Shown here: positions 28,925 through 60,630 of the stretch, piece by piece
Position numbering within the stretch: position 1 is the first letter of the stretch
How the letters are laid out: each line of letters begins with the position of its first letter
Origin: Accumulibacter sp.
Lineage (GTDB): Bacteria; Pseudomonadota; Gammaproteobacteria; Burkholderiales; Rhodocyclaceae
Reading direction: 5' to 3'
Assembly (NCBI RefSeq): GCF_023806625.1
Contig: NZ_JAMTDX010000083.1
Location: forward strand, 33,309-97,308
Length of the DNA stretch: 64,000 nt
The notes under the pieces: generated by a model
The model's database searches: none
What the model was told of the DNA's origin: nothing
The model's input: only the letters and a program-made list of their open reading frames with translations
Position numbers and translations under genes: made by a program

Positions 28925-29038
28925 ACGTGTCACCGTGGACGCCGCCACGTGCAGCCGTGGCGCGCCCATCCCGCAGCGGGGTGCTGCCGGGCGGCTTCGA
29001 ATCGCTTAGAATGGCAGCCTGTCGCAAGGGTTGAGGCA

Positions 29039-29428
29039 ATGATCGGAATTCTTCTGATTACCCACGGGTCGTTTGGCGAGAGCCTGATCCAGAACGTCTG
29101 CCACGTGCTCAACAAGCGTCCGCCGCTGATCGCTCAGCTCGGCGTCGCTGCTCAGGACGATCCGCTGGACATCCTGCCGCTGGCGCGCCTGCTGCTCAAG
29201 GAGGTCGATGCCGGCGAAGGCGTCTTGGTGATGACCGACATCTTTGGCGCCACTCCCGGAAATCTGGCGCTCAAGCTGCTTGATCCGGGGCACGTCGAGG
29301 GGGTGGCCGGAGCGAGTCTGCCGATGCTGCTGCGCGCTCTGACGTACCGCGGACACGGCATGGAAACGATGCTGGAGAAGGCGCTGAGCGGTGGTCGCGA
29401 CGGCGTGATCAAGTTGCCGGCGGGGTAG
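29039..29428 (+). CDS. PTS EIIA component, mannose family
   Basis: A 129-residue EIIA of the mannose (PTS-EIIA fructose/mannose) family. The phosphoryl-accepting His is in LLITHGSFG (residue 9), and the conserved TDIFGATPGNLA block is present. There is no EIIB or EIIC partner nearby, so it is more likely a phosphorylation-state sensor than part of a sugar importer. The ATG at 29039, with AAGGGTTGAGG upstream, is preferred to a start 30 codons earlier. HPr and EI genes follow directly. A TAGAAT at 29007-29012 may mark a promoter. Confidence 0.88.
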   Translation: MIGILLITHGSFGESLIQNVCHVLNKRPPLIAQLGVAAQDDPLDILPLARLLLKEVDAGEGVLVMTDIFGATPGNLALKLLDPGHVEGVAGASLPMLLRALTYRGHGMETMLEKALSGGRDGVIKLPAG

Positions 29429-29450
29429 GAACACAAGGAGGAAGGTCGCC

Positions 29451-29720
29451 ATGGTACGCACGGAAGCCGCAATTCTCAACAAGCTCGGCTTGCACGCCCG
29501 CGCTTCGGCGAAGCTGACCCAGCTCGCCAGCAGCTTCGCCAGCGACGTCTGGATGGAGAAGGGCGCGCGCAGGATTAACGCCAAGAGCATCATGGGGGTG
29601 ATGATGCTCGCCGCGGGCAAAGGTTCGACGGTCGTCGTCGAGACCGAGGGTACCGATGAGCAGGCGGCCAACGAAGCGATTCTGGGACTGATCGCCGCCC
29701 GCTTCGGCGAGCCCGAGTGA
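29451..29720 (+). CDS. ptsH: HPr family phosphocarrier protein
   Basis: An 89-residue HPr. His15 in LGLHARAS is the site phosphorylated by EI. Ser46 in AKSIMGVMML is the site used by HPr kinase/phosphorylase in betaproteobacteria. Both regulatory sites are present, which suits a control role. AAGGAGGAAGG upstream is a strong ribosome-binding site. Between EIIA and EI. Confidence 0.95.
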   Translation: MVRTEAAILNKLGLHARASAKLTQLASSFASDVWMEKGARRINAKSIMGVMMLAAGKGSTVVVETEGTDEQAANEAILGLIAARFGEPE

Positions 29721-29727
29721 GCGGATT

Positions 29728-31482
29728 GTGAGCTTCACTCTGCACGGCCTGGCGGTTTCCGGCGGAATTGCCATTGGCCAGGCGCACCTGATCTCGCACG
29801 CGACGCTCGAGGTCTCGCATCTGGTGATCTCGCCGCGGCTGGTCGACAAGGAAGTCGCCCGCTTCGACGCTGCGGTGCAGCGCGTGCGCGAGGAATTCGC
29901 CCAGCTCAAGGGGCGTGCCCAGTTCTCGTCGGCCGAGTTCGGCGCGTTCATCGACCTGCACATGATGATCCTGTCGGACCCCGAACTCGCCGAAGCGCCC
30001 AAGCACCTGATCCGCGAGCGGCGCTGCAACGCGGAATGGGCGCTCGTACAGCAGATGGAGGTTCTCGTCCATCAGTTCGAACAGTTTGACGACGCCTATC
30101 TGCGCGAACGAAGCTACGACGTCCGCCAGGTCGTCGAACGGGTGATCAAGGAACTCGTCGGTCAGCCCGGACGGATGGCCTTGCGGCCAGGCCCGGGCAA
30201 GGGTATCCGCGAGGAAAACCTGATCGTCGTCGCGCACGATCTGTCGCCGGCCGACGTCATCGCGTACAAGGAACACCATTTCGCCGCCTTCGTCACCGAC
30301 GTTGGCGGGTCGACTTCGCATACGGCGATTCTCGCGCGCAGCCTGCGCATCCCCGCCGTCCTCGGGCTGCACAACGCGCGACAGCTGATTCGCGACAACG
30401 AGGTCCTGATCGTCGACGGCACGCGAGGGGTGCTGATCGTCAACCCGGATCCGCGCGTACTCGATGAATACCGGCTCAGAAAGAGCCAGATCGAGCTCGA
30501 GCGCACCAAGCTGCGCCGCCTGAAGACCGCCCGTTCGGTGACCCTCGACGGGATCGACATCGACCTGCACGCGAACATCGAACTGCCCGGTGACGTGGCC
30601 AACGCACTCGACGGCGGTGCCGAAGGCATCGGCCTGTTCCGCACCGAGTTTCTCTTCCTCGATCGTGGCGACATGCCCACCGAGGATGAACAGTTCGAGG
30701 CCTACGGAACGGTGGTCAGAGGGATGGGTGGTCGGCCAGTGACGATCCGGACCTTCGATCTCGGTTACGACAAAGACCTGCACCCCGGGAAGGTGCTCGG
30801 CGACCGCATCCAGAGCAACCCGGCGCTCGGGCTCCGTGCGATCCGCCTGTCGCTGGCCGAACCGAAGATGTTCCAGACTCAGCTCCGGGCGATCCTTCGC
30901 GCGTCGCGCTACGGGAAGATCAAGCTGCTCATCCCGATGCTCTCGCAGGCGCACGAGATCGATCAGACGCTGGCTGCGATCGAACGGGCCAAGGCCAGTC
31001 TGCGTGCGGAACGTGTGCCGTTCGACGAGCAGACGCCGGTCGGTGCGATGATCGAGATCCCGGCCGCGGCGCTGGCCATCGGAATGTTCCTGCGGCGCGT
31101 AAACTTCCTCTCGATCGGCACCAATGACCTGATCCAGTACACACTGGCGATCGACCGCAGCGACGAACAGGTTGCACCGCTCTACGATCCGCTGCACCCG
31201 GCGGTCCTGATGCTGCTCGCGCACACGATCGCCAGTGCCGAGAAGGTGGCCATTCCCGTGTCGATTTGCGGCGAACTCGCCGGCGATGCGAATCTGACCC
31301 GCCTGCTGCTGGGAATGGGGTTGCGGCAGTTTTCAATGCATCCGGCGCAGATCCTGTCCGTCAAGCAGCGGATCATGCAGAGCAACTGTGCGGTGCTCGC
31401 CCCGATCGTCCGCCGTCTCCTGCGCCACGAGGAACCAGCCAAGATCCGCGAGCAGCTCGAGAAGCTCAACAGCCTCAGCTGA
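29728..31482 (+). CDS. ptsI: Phosphoenolpyruvate-protein phosphotransferase (enzyme I)
   Basis: Full-length EI of 584 residues with a GTG start 7 bases after ptsH. The swivelling domain carries the active His in GGSTSHTAILAR (about residue 198). The PEP-binding barrel has GLFRTEFLFLDR, TIRTFDLGYDKD, SIGTNDLIQYTLAIDR and the Cys of VSICGELAGD. It transfers phosphate from PEP to HPr. Here it serves a permease-less PTS. Confidence 0.95.
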   Translation: MSFTLHGLAVSGGIAIGQAHLISHATLEVSHLVISPRLVDKEVARFDAAVQRVREEFAQLKGRAQFSSAEFGAFIDLHMMILSDPELAEAPKHLIRERRCNAEWALVQQMEVLVHQFEQFDDAYLRERSYDVRQVVERVIKELVGQPGRMALRPGPGKGIREENLIVVAHDLSPADVIAYKEHHFAAFVTDVGGSTSHTAILARSLRIPAVLGLHNARQLIRDNEVLIVDGTRGVLIVNPDPRVLDEYRLRKSQIELERTKLRRLKTARSVTLDGIDIDLHANIELPGDVANALDGGAEGIGLFRTEFLFLDRGDMPTEDEQFEAYGTVVRGMGGRPVTIRTFDLGYDKDLHPGKVLGDRIQSNPALGLRAIRLSLAEPKMFQTQLRAILRASRYGKIKLLIPMLSQAHEIDQTLAAIERAKASLRAERVPFDEQTPVGAMIEIPAAALAIGMFLRRVNFLSIGTNDLIQYTLAIDRSDEQVAPLYDPLHPAVLMLLAHTIASAEKVAIPVSICGELAGDANLTRLLLGMGLRQFSMHPAQILSVKQRIMQSNCAVLAPIVRRLLRHEEPAKIREQLEKLNSLS

Positions 31483-31483
31483 A

Positions 31484-31512
31484 TTGACTTTTTCCCGGGC
31501 TGCGGGTAACTT
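31484..31512 (+). promoter_or_regulatory. Sigma70-type promoter for metX
   Basis: TTGACT at 31484-31489 and TAACTT at 31507-31512 are separated by exactly 17 bases, immediately after the ptsI stop. The predicted transcript start (~31519) falls just before the riboswitch aptamer. Confidence 0.7.
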
Positions 31513-31522
31513 TCGCGGCCCT

Positions 31523-31580
31523 CGCGCCGATTTGAACAGTCAGCTTGCGGGCGCCTGACCAATACGGCTGAAGCGCGGGT
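31523..31580 (+). ncRNA. Probable SAM-II riboswitch aptamer upstream of metX
   Basis: The stem GCGCC (31524-31528) pairs with GGCGC (31550-31554). It encloses GATTTG (31529-31534) and GCTTGC (31543-31548), and GCTGAAG follows at 31567-31573. These blocks, their order and spacing match the SAM-II (metA element) consensus GAUUUG...GCUUGC...GCUAAAG. AGC (31542-31544) can pair with GCT (31567-31569) as part of the pseudoknot. The outer pseudoknot pairs are not obvious by eye, and the A of GCUAAAG is G. SAM-II elements are best known from alphaproteobacterial methionine genes. A terminator follows at once. Confidence 0.65.
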
Positions 31581-31582
31581 AG

Positions 31583-31615
31583 CCCGGTCCGCCCTGACAG
31601 CTGGCCGGGTTTTTT
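31583..31615 (+). terminator. Intrinsic terminator (attenuator) in the metX leader
   Basis: CCCGGTC at 31583-31589 pairs with GGCCGGG at 31603-31609 (one G-U pair), followed by six T residues. It lies three bases after the aptamer and 29 bases before the metX start. A competing CGGG/CCCG pairing (31576-31579 with 31583-31586) could be the antiterminator. Expected logic: SAM bound, stem forms, metX off. Confidence 0.75.
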
Positions 31616-31643
31616 GTGCCTGGGTAGTCCGACAACGATCGTC

Positions 31644-32771
31644 ATGTCATCAGAGAATTCTGTCGGAGTCGTCGCCCCGCAACGGGCGCGCTTCTACGAC
31701 CCGCTCCTCCTGCGTAGCGGAGCCGAAATGCCGGGTTTCGAGCTGGTCTTCGAAACCTATGGTCAGCTCAATCGCGCGCGCTCGAATGCCGTTCTGGTCT
31801 GCCACGCGCTATCCGGCAGCCATCACGTCGCCGGGCGCTATGCCGACGACGTGGACAACGTCGGCTGGTGGGACAACCTCGTCGGACCGGGCAAACCGCT
31901 CGACATCAAAAAGTTCTTCGTCGTCGGGGTCAACAACCTCGGCGGCTGTTACGGCTCCACGGGTCCACTGTCGATCAACCCGGCGACGGGCAAGCGCTAT
32001 GGAGCCGATTTCCCGCTGGTCACCGTCGAGGACTGGGTGGCTGCACAGGGGCGGCTGGCCGATCACCTCGGTGTCGAGACCTGGGCGGCGGTGATCGGTG
32101 GGAGCCTCGGCGGCATGCAGGCGCTCGAATGGTCGCTTCAGTTTCCCGAGCGCGTGCGCCACGCGATGGTCATTGCCTCGGCGCCGAAACTGTCGGCGCA
32201 GAACATCGCCTTCAATGAGGTGGCTCGGCAGGCGATTCTCTCGGACCCAGATTTCCACGCTGGCTACTACGCGGATCATGGCGTCGTCCCGACCCGGGGA
32301 CTGCGGCTCGCGCGCATGGTCGGGCACATCACCTACCTTTCGGACGCGCAGATGGCCGAGAAGTTCGGCCGGCAACTCCGTCACGGCGAGCACAAGTTCA
32401 GCTACGACGTCGACTTCGAGATCGAATCGTATCTGCGCTATCAGGGCAACAAATTCGCGTCGTTTTTCGACGCGAACACCTATCTGATGACCACCAAGGC
32501 GCTCGATTATTTCGATCCGGCCTATGAGTTCGACGGCAACCTGGCTGCGGCACTGGCCCGCGCCAGGGCAAGCTTCTTCGTGGCGAGTTTCTCGACCGAC
32601 TGGCGCTTTTCCCCTGCACGCTCGCGGGAGATCGTCTTCGCGCTGCTGCATAACCGTCTGCGCGTCGTCTACGCGGAAATCGAGTCCACTGCCGGGCACG
32701 ATTCTTTCCTGCTCGACGACGATCACTACCACGCTTTGCTGCGCGCCTACCTGGAGAACATCGCCGTATGA
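31644..32771 (+). CDS. metX: Homoserine O-acyltransferase (MetX type)
   Basis: Alpha/beta-hydrolase fold acyltransferase of 375 residues for the first committed step of methionine synthesis. The nucleophile Ser is in [14 protein letters not shown] (about residue 154), and the C-terminal GHDSFLLDD carries the catalytic His-Asp region. Further blocks: [12 protein letters not shown] and [18 protein letters not shown]. Whether acetyl- or succinyl-CoA is used is not settled by sequence; betaproteobacterial MetX proteins of the MetXW arrangement often use succinyl-CoA. The ATG at 31644 lies after the attenuator; a start at 31614 falls inside it and is rejected. Overlaps metW by four bases. Confidence 0.92.
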
Positions 32772-33391
32772 CCGAGAACGAGCGAAAGATCAGGGCCGAG
32801 CAGCGCGAACGTTTCGATTTCGCCGTGATCGCCGGGTGGATCCCGCCGGGTGAGCGCGTGCTCGACCTCGGCTGCGGCGACGGCCGGCTGCTGCGCTACC
32901 TGAGCGAGACCAGGGATGTCACCGGCTATGGCGTCGAGATCGATCGCGAGAGCGTCCTGCGCTGCATCCGGAACGGCGTAGACGTCATTCAGATGGATAT
33001 CGAATGCGGGTTGTCCGGCTTCGAAGACCATTCATTCGATCACGTGATCATCTCGCAGGCGCTGCAGACGATGCGTGCCACCGAGCGAATCCTCTGCGAG
33101 ATGCTGCGCGTCGCCGGCGAGGCTGTGGTCAGCTTTCCGAATTTCGCCTACCTGACCAATCGGGTGGCGATCGCCGACGGACACATGCCGGTTTCGGAGG
33201 ACCTACCTTACGACTGGTTCGACACACCGAACGTGCGCTTCTTCACGATTGCGGACTTCGAGAACCTTTGTGAGAAACTGGGCATTGAAGTTCGCGAGAG
33301 GCTCGCGTTCGATGACCACGGGCGTGAGGTCGACCAAGATCCCAATCTCAACGGCAGCCTGGCCTTCTACCGTCTCGGGCGCAAGGCCTGA
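32768..33391 (+). CDS. metW: Methionine biosynthesis protein MetW
   Basis: A 207-residue MetW with a class I methyltransferase-like fold. Motif [15 protein letters not shown] near residue 35, then [20 protein letters not shown] and [15 protein letters not shown]. MetW is required with MetX for homoserine acylation in many proteobacteria; its own catalytic role is unclear. Its start overlaps the metX stop and its stop overlaps the next gene, so all three are likely co-translated and under the SAM-II leader. Confidence 0.93.
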
Positions 33392-59460: not shown

Positions 59461-60630
59461 ATGCTGATCGACTTCTTCCTGCACCTCAAGGCCCGCGGCC
59501 TGTCGGTGTCGATCAAGGAGTTTCTGGCGCTGCTCGAAGCGCTGCAGCTGCACGTCATCGAACACAGCCTCGACGACTTCTACGTCCTTTCGCGGGCCAC
59601 GCTGGTCAAGGACGAAACGCACTTCGACAAGTTCGACCGCGCCTTCGGCGAATACTTCAAGGGAATCGAGGCGCTGCCGGGAATGGAGGTGCTGATCCCC
59701 GACGAGTGGCTGCGGCAGGCGGTAAAGAGGCATCTGACCGACGCCGAACGCGCGAAGCTCGAGAAGCTCGGCTGGGACAAGCTGATGGAGACTTTCCGAC
59801 AACGTCTCGCCGAGCAGAAGGAACGGCACGCCGGCGGCAGCAAGTGGATCGGCTCCGGCGGGACGTCTCCTTTCGGCCATGGAGGCACGCACCCCGAAGG
59901 GATCCGCGTCGGTGGACGCAGCGAGAACCGGTCGGCGGTCAAGGTCTGGGACCGCCGCGAGTACCGCAACCTCGACGACAGCGTCGAGATCGGCACGCGC
60001 AACATCAAGGTCGCGCTGCGTCGGCTGCGCCGTTTTGCCCGCCAGGGGGCGCCCGAAGAACTCGACCTCGAAGGCACGATCACCGGGACGGCGCGCAATG
60101 CCGGCTGGCTCGACCTGAAACTGCGACCCGAGCGGCACAACGCGGTCAAGGTGCTGCTTTTCCTCGACGTCGGCGGTTCGATGGACGACCACATCCGCGT
60201 CTGCGAGGAACTGTTCTCGGCGTGCCGCAGCGAGTTCAAGCACCTCGAGCATTACTATTTCCACAACTGCGTCTACGACCACCTCTGGCGCGACAACCGG
60301 CGCCGGCACAGCGAGCGGATTCCGACGCTCGAGGTGATGCACCGTTACGGCAACGACTACAAGCTCATCTTCGTCGGCGACGCGGCGATGAGCCCCTACG
60401 AACTCGTCCAGCCCGGCGGCAGCCTCGAGTACGACAACGTCGAACCTGGCGCCGCCTGGCTGCGGCGGCTGACCGACACCTGGCCGCACGCGATCTGGCT
60501 CAACCCCGAGTCCGAGCACTCGTGGCCGTATCGCCAGTCGACGTCGCTGATCCACAATCTGCTCGGCGGCCGGATGTTCCCCCTGACCCTCGACGGCCTC
60601 GAGCGCGGCATGCGCCTGTTGAGCAAGTAA
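59461..60630 (+). CDS. CoxE-like VWA domain protein
   Basis: A 389-residue cytoplasmic protein of the CoxE/VWA group. The N-terminal helical part (MLIDFFLHLKARGLSVSIKEFL) precedes a Gly-rich linker (SGGTSPFGHGGTHPEG), and the C-terminal half is the VWA domain. Its MIDAS is LFLDVGGSMDDH, where the usual first Ser of DxSxS is Gly. Partner of the MoxR ATPase upstream. Such pairs mature or insert metal centres (CO dehydrogenase, others); target unknown here. Confidence 0.85.
   Translation: MLIDFFLHLKARGLSVSIKEFLALLEALQLHVIEHSLDDFYVLSRATLVKDETHFDKFDRAFGEYFKGIEALPGMEVLIPDEWLRQAVKRHLTDAERAKLEKLGWDKLMETFRQRLAEQKERHAGGSKWIGSGGTSPFGHGGTHPEGIRVGGRSENRSAVKVWDRREYRNLDDSVEIGTRNIKVALRRLRRFARQGAPEELDLEGTITGTARNAGWLDLKLRPERHNAVKVLLFLDVGGSMDDHIRVCEELFSACRSEFKHLEHYYFHNCVYDHLWRDNRRRHSERIPTLEVMHRYGNDYKLIFVGDAAMSPYELVQPGGSLEYDNVEPGAAWLRRLTDTWPHAIWLNPESEHSWPYRQSTSLIHNLLGGRMFPLTLDGLERGMRLLSK

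Follow-up and report, generated by a model that had tools for sequence, protein, structure and literature searches.

SAM-II-type switches turn off methionine-making genes when S-adenosylmethionine (SAM) is plentiful, and SAM sensing is what SAM-V, SAM/SAH, SAM-II long loops and SAM-I have in common with SAM-II. The papers cited here by PMC number are used for the accessible parts of their text. In SAM-II, the invariant pocket bases are U10-U12, U20, U21, G22, C23, G42, C43, U44 and A45-A47, and the triple U11-A45-U21, which is part of the SAM pocket, is fully conserved (PMC3764141). SAM-II with terminators was already mentioned for beta-proteobacteria by Barrick and Breaker 2007 (PMC2258182). 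Leyn 2014 placed SAM_alpha only in Rhizobiales and Rhodobacterales, with metK and metF not among the targets named in the accessible part of that paper, and presented metXZ as a new element whose ligand was not known there (PMC4239095). In S. meliloti, SAM-induced termination was predicted for metZ, a SAM-pocket mutation in a metA reporter led to higher expression, and SAM-II leaders yield sRNAs (Scheuer 2022, PMC9373788). The riboswitch class treated here is, then, already known; what is new is a pocket variant, a set of losses in one genus and the prediction of an antiterminator shared among leaders.

The locus lies in a stretch of DNA of 64,000 nucleotides, here called the window. Its host is Candidatus Accumulibacter-like, since the first eight named records in a MetX similarity search (85-89% identity) include six from Accumulibacter, and the window's genus is represented by 28 genomes (species) in the whole-genome set.

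Layout and ancestry of the metX leader

The features between ptsI and metW are the following.

31480-31482: ptsI stop codon, upstream of the leader, read from the sequence
31484-31512, plus strand: sigma-70-type promoter, TTGACT (31484-31489), 17 nt, TAACTT (31507-31512), directly after the ptsI stop
31524-31554, plus strand: P1 stem and loop L1, GCGCC (31524-31528) with GGCGC (31550-31554), GATTTG (31529-31534) in L1
31543-31548, plus strand: GCTTGC, pseudoknot 5' strand; 31547/31548 with 31567/31568 form P2b, 31543/31544 with 31573/31574 form inner P2a
31560, plus strand: C in loop L3 at the position equated, by our own numbering fit, with A35 of SAM-II
31567-31572, plus strand: GCTGAA, pseudoknot 3' strand and ligand pocket, with G at 31570 in place of A45
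31565-31603, plus strand: predicted antiterminator, CGGCTG (31565-31570) with CAGCTG (31598-31603), six pairs, one of them G-U, from duplex and fold calculations
31583-31615, plus strand: intrinsic terminator, CCCGGTC (31583-31589) and GGCCGGG (31603-31609), 7 bp, six T (31610-31615)
31644-32771, plus strand: metX, homoserine O-acyltransferase, best score as succinyl type (NF047916, 655 bits), ATG at 31644
32768-33391, plus strand: metW (TIGR02081, 252 bits)

The first-pass annotation of this DNA had described a promoter, a SAM-II-like aptamer and a 7-bp terminator with six Ts ahead of metX-metW, and sequence and gene profiles placed all of them where it had done so; the upstream gene was confirmed as ptsI (TIGR01417, 523 bits). 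The transcription-attenuator layout it proposed is supported, since the arrangement recurs in leaders of the genus and family: 13 further species of the genus have promoter, aptamer and terminator as well, and the promoter form TTGAC...TA...T was present in 13/13 other genus leaders with a regex-found aptamer. The terminator hairpin of the window was predicted at -16.9 kcal/mol, the median over 82 leaders being -17.45. Folding energy by itself would have missed the leader (z-score -0.04) and is uninformative as evidence. Directly upstream of metX, positions 28949-31482 carry a PTS phosphorelay-like set, in which PtsI was recognized by NCBIfam and EIIA-like and HPr-like parts by eye.

The leader shares with SAM-II (RF00521, SAM_alpha) the order P1, L1 GAUUUG, UUGC, P1', A-rich L3 and GCUnAA, the P2b pseudoknot, a terminator and a methionine/SAM-cycle gene downstream (metX-metW), but differs from it in score (19.5 vs 36 bits), in having G for A45 and C for A35, and in the loss of the sixth P1 pair. 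That score, obtained with RF00521 on 31440-31680 (241 nt), corresponded to an E of 0.021 and lay below the 36-bit cut-off, and no Rfam family exceeded its cut-off anywhere in the window. The best RF00521 match in the 4.09-Mb genome was the metX leader site (E 0.08). When 31440-31680 was compared by cmscan with 4227 Rfam families, SAM-V, SAM/SAH, SAM-II long loops and SAM-I gave no match up to E 10, so that these other SAM classes and the 'hybrid variant' that had been suggested find no support in Rfam. Weak matches to the Burkholderia sRNA families RF02424 and RF02883 were far under their cut-offs and were rejected.

We searched MetX in 121 genomes of the family and found it in 116 at E up to 1e-80; 72 of these 116 metX leaders, the window's included, carried a SAM-II-like pattern (regex). 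Our covariance model, R1, was built from 62 metX leaders, all taken from the family's other genera, and contains no member of the window's genus; alignment A1 excludes L130 and L144, which have insertions, from 64 distinct non-genus aptamers, identical cores being used once. R1 added 15 elements among the remaining 44 leaders (the match of L051 is split in two, and insertions occur in L117 and L131), giving 87/116 in total, window included. It matched the window leader with 62.2 bits (E 1.6e-17, and 4.3e-16 at genome scale); another R1 match, at 60024-60075 of the window (12.7 bits, E 0.059), was taken as chance. RF00521 itself matched 18/20 relatives at E up to 0.1 (27.9-44 bits), L061 and L111 being the two of those tested that gave no match, and its cut-off was passed by four of the 20 (L039, L046, L102 and L165, 37-44 bits), L165 belonging to the window's genus. 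The Rfam check that had been proposed for this leader fell short in the window copy but succeeded in these four homologous ones. As judged from these comparisons, the window leader is a SAM-II riboswitch by descent, from the element common to the family metX leaders; by the Rfam cut-off and by its pocket bases, it is a non-standard member of the class.

Over the order, RF00521 scored above cut-off in 69/399 genomes and a tight pattern matched in 181/399; a loose pattern with the GCTGAA variant was swamped by chance matches and discarded, the tight one being used instead. At class level, R1 matched at E up to 0.001 in 138/274 genomes, which suggests that elements of SAM-II type occur commonly beyond the alphaproteobacteria. 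For the best 10 of these loci, we took the longest reading frame with a start no more than 500 nt away; it was metZ at six loci, while metK and metF accounted for two each, and these neighbours support the SAM assignment for the class overall. The window leader shares with the metXZ element a position before metXW or metZ, a pseudoknot and a terminator downstream, and the location described for metXZ agrees with what we found in 87/116 family metX leaders and at the six metZ loci. The family element is probably the metXZ element of Leyn 2014, compared by the description accessible in that paper (PMC4239095). Our searches of the open PMC literature found no paper equating metXZ with SAM-II. The comparison suggests SAM-II identity for this orphan beta-proteobacterial element, whose predicted antiterminator would draw on the ligand-pocket segment itself.

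Outside the order, SAM-II-type elements were seen before metZ, metK and metF (L281-L290). In genomes G779, G741, G618 and G651, matches of SAM-II type came in pairs on one strand, spaced by 105-113 nt, which suggests tandem aptamers; G779 alone had ten matches.

Aptamer structure and pocket substitutions

The window retains the P1 helix, with five G-C pairs, and the P2 pseudoknot, with P2b GC:GC and inner P2a GC:GC. P2b pairs in 62/62 relatives and the inner P2a pairs in 60/62 and 55/62. The covariation check advised for the metX leaders of relatives gave a positive result at the outermost (sixth) P1 pair, where both sides were changed in 12/62 relatives against a shuffle mean of 3.3 (0/500 as high); the remaining P1 pairs and P2b are nearly invariant and so provide little information. 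This sixth pair is lost in the window, where C stands opposite C (31523/31555), and 12/62 relatives are also without a standard pair there. The outer pseudoknot pairs, which the first-pass annotation had found unclear, are indeed so, but this is a trait of the whole family: the inner GC:GC is general, and a longer outer P2a helix was rejected as a general feature, own partners scoring 6.82 and swapped ones 7.07, with 471/500 swaps at least as high. The P1 pairing probability obtained by simple folding, which ignores the pseudoknot, was discarded as a measure of decay, because the value of the window (0.005) was undercut by ten others of 84.

Compared with the consensus of the 14 genus copies (window included), the window showed 8 differences in 54 nt, and the other members 0 to 4. 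Two of the window differences, C at 31560 (A35) and G at 31570 (A45), hit columns that are invariant in the 62 relatives of A1, and both positions are A in 84/84 other regex-found leaders of the family and genus. The family metX leaders share with the window the aptamer order, the terminator and an antiterminator of the CGGCU/AGCCG type, but the other 86 elements of the family sample (71 found by regex and 15 by R1 only) keep A45. The same base was A in the other readable genus copies, in the 30 loci inspected at order level, one of them being a family leader again, and in every tight-pattern match listed over the order, the window's own excepted. Among the genus copies and the tight-pattern matches listed, A45G is known from the window's genome only, the G at 31570 being the base of the assembled sequence.

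In our numbering fit, 12 of the 13 invariant pocket bases listed for SAM-II are kept and A45 is G (PMC3764141). The reading of GCUGAAG for GCUAAAG in the earlier description was correct, and the changed base corresponds to A45. Since A45 is invariant in the other copies examined or listed and is given as completely conserved (PMC3764141), normal SAM sensing by the window copy is doubtful; the SAM-II ancestry first proposed for the leader is supported (by the R1 score and by the relatives that pass RF00521). Changes in or beside the pocket were also found in relatives, U10 being altered in G415 and G478 (leaders L137 and L140) and GCUAAA one A shorter in G460 and G506 (leaders L119 and L124), so that some such changes may be tolerated.

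Predicted antiterminator and loss of the element in the genus

Among the 85 leaders with the pattern (72 of the family and 14 of the genus, one shared), a simple scan found the terminator in 82. Many of the terminator loops finish, on their 3' side, with AGCC, AGCU or GCC, which can pair with CGGCU of the aptamer. The helix between this aptamer segment and the loop end had at least 5 pairs in 57/82 leaders, against 19.5% with shuffled loop ends (kinship uncontrolled), and fewer than 5 in 25/82. Own pairing averaged -8.76 kcal/mol, about 0.4 better than the -8.38 kcal/mol of swapped partners, and 0/200 swaps were as low, again with kinship uncontrolled. When the leaders were cut before the 3' arm of the terminator, the MFE fold paired at least 4/5 CGGCU positions with the loop end in 67/82, and in 12/14 of those of the genus. 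These calculations suggest that the leaders share a platform in which CGGCU of the aptamer can pair with AGCCG of the terminator loop to form a predicted antiterminator. Because the segment involved includes the pocket GCU, SAM binding and the antiterminator would be mutually exclusive. In the ancestral form, the promoter behind ptsI would start an RNA in which the SAM-II pseudoknot folds; with SAM bound, the pocket GCU would be held in the pseudoknot, the terminator would form and metX-metW would be off, and with SAM absent, CGGCU would pair with AGCCG of the terminator loop and metX-metW would be on.

For the window leader, we infer ligand, direction of control and loss of SAM response from sequence comparison. 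Its antiterminator was predicted at -17.6 kcal/mol, compared with the -16.9 kcal/mol of the terminator hairpin; with the whole terminator present, the MFE fold was the terminator (-19.4 vs -17.6 kcal/mol). This gap of 1.8 kcal is the fourth smallest among the 14 genus copies, and an exceptional balance in the window was rejected, the value being within the range of the genus. A45G extends the window antiterminator by one pair, to six (CGGCUG/CAGCUG). A lean to ON is therefore suggested by the pocket change plus the added antiterminator pair, and not by exceptional energies.

The element has been lost repeatedly in the genus. By pattern, it was present in 14 of the 28 species (window included) and absent from 11. 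In G510, its 3' part is visible at a contig edge; in G517 (L166, metX leader from 1251), an insertion of more than 100 nt, with inverted repeats recognized by eye, splits the pocket segment after GCTAA; and G516 (L164) has an eroded remnant, with the promoter and pieces of the terminator left and the aptamer core gone. The distance from ptsI to the MetX match was 152-173 nt in the 14 species with the element, whereas nine of the 11 that lack it had 13-33 nt; the ptsI stop adjoins the metX start in G519 and G530, which lack it too. So short a gap cannot hold the promoter, and metXW is probably transcribed together with ptsI in these species. On the MetX tree, absence of the element needs four changes, two of them forced by well-supported branches. 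The nearest relative of the window, G526 (L152; SH-aLRT 90 for the pair, below the starred level), keeps a canonical aptamer. The MetX branch of the window is itself long (0.2 changes per site), so that its 8 leader differences only modestly exceed the 0 to 4 of other members. The window copy looks like one more stage of loss, at an earlier point, or else like a switch that has been retuned, a claim tempered by that long branch.

We believe, with some confidence, that the window carries a weakened SAM-II attenuator that leans or drifts to ON and is neither a hybrid nor proven dead. The changes of A45 to G and A35 to C and the loss of the outer P1 pair would have removed most of the SAM response, and the switch would represent a step on a path finished in sister species by deletion of the element. 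Against decay, the promoter, P2b, inner P2a, the terminator and 12/13 pocket bases are kept, more than would be expected of a long-dead element. The genus as a whole offers a natural series, made up of the intact SAM-II attenuator, the pocket mutant, the interrupted copy, the eroded copy and the clean deletion, that would let the loss of a riboswitch be followed against gene expression.

Alternative readings and a second element before metK

A working, slightly divergent SAM-II attenuator, in which G45 forms a U-G pair, SAM is bound perhaps more weakly and metX-metW stays SAM-repressed, is possible but rather unlikely. It would agree with the retention of the promoter, the terminator, P2b and most pocket bases and with the near-pocket changes of some relatives, but A45 is invariant in all other copies examined or listed and is a member of the ligand triple (PMC3764141), two otherwise fixed positions are altered together, and loss of the element is common in the genus. 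It is improbable that A45G (with A35C) changed the response or the sensitivity of the aptamer in an attenuator that was kept and retuned by the same mutation through its additional antiterminator pair.

We give little credit to a variant aptamer that would keep its control of metX-metW but prefer another ligand, e.g. SAH or a different adenosyl compound. A ligand-triple substitution with scaffold and platform retained is what such a variant would show, and the metK leaders of the genus (see below) show that a scaffold resembling SAM-II can be strictly conserved with a different pocket base altered (U10 to G). A precedent is given by the spermidine-binding SAM-I variants, SAM aptamers whose pocket is likewise substituted and which also have a terminator platform, but which belong to another aptamer class and often precede other genes (PMC10853860), whereas the genes regulated here are unchanged and A45G was seen in one genome only, among the genus copies and matches listed, so that selection for a new state cannot be shown. 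It is very improbable that the terminated leader is itself the main product and works in trans as a small RNA: the promoter and terminator remain intact and S. meliloti SAM-II leaders do yield sRNAs (PMC9373788), but nothing in the present data points to a target. A promoter and terminator with chance aptamer motifs and no riboswitch, a reading that could invoke the Rfam score under cut-off and the lack of folding-energy excess, can practically be dismissed given the R1 E value and a leader that is conserved across genus and family.

Next after the metX leader, R1 scored best genome-wide (27.2 bits, E 4.2e-5) in the leader of metK (TIGR01034, 613 bits), outside the window:

G000:C7:39916-39990 (L292, L296): metK-leader element

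All 28 species of the genus, and two other genera of the family, have a SAM-II-like element before metK that is strictly conserved (leaders L297-L323, L325 and L326 in addition to those above); L316, L319 and L323, missed by the pattern and absent from alignment A2, yet carry it. Its order is CCGCC-GAGUUAAUCAGGACAACUUGC-AGGGCGG, a variable hairpin, AAAUACUGCUAAAGCGUC, a terminator-like hairpin and a helix of the GUCUGCUC...GAGCAGAC type, which is predicted to cover the ribosome-binding site. With respect to SAM-II, A45 is kept, G stands at the U10 position and a hairpin is inserted after P1. No SAM family of Rfam matched the metK leader up to E 10, and no description of the element was found in the literature searched, which included the accessible parts of PMC7736828 and PMC2864571. 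We regard it as a candidate variant class, and the window's genome retains an apparently separate control of SAM-II-like type at metK, next to an eroding copy at metX. The strict pattern of the metK element matched in 3/330 genomes at order level; the three belong to the window's family, and two of them lie outside the genus. In these two, the outer helix is CCUGCUC/GAGCAGG instead of UCUGCUC/GAGCAGA, both sides being changed.
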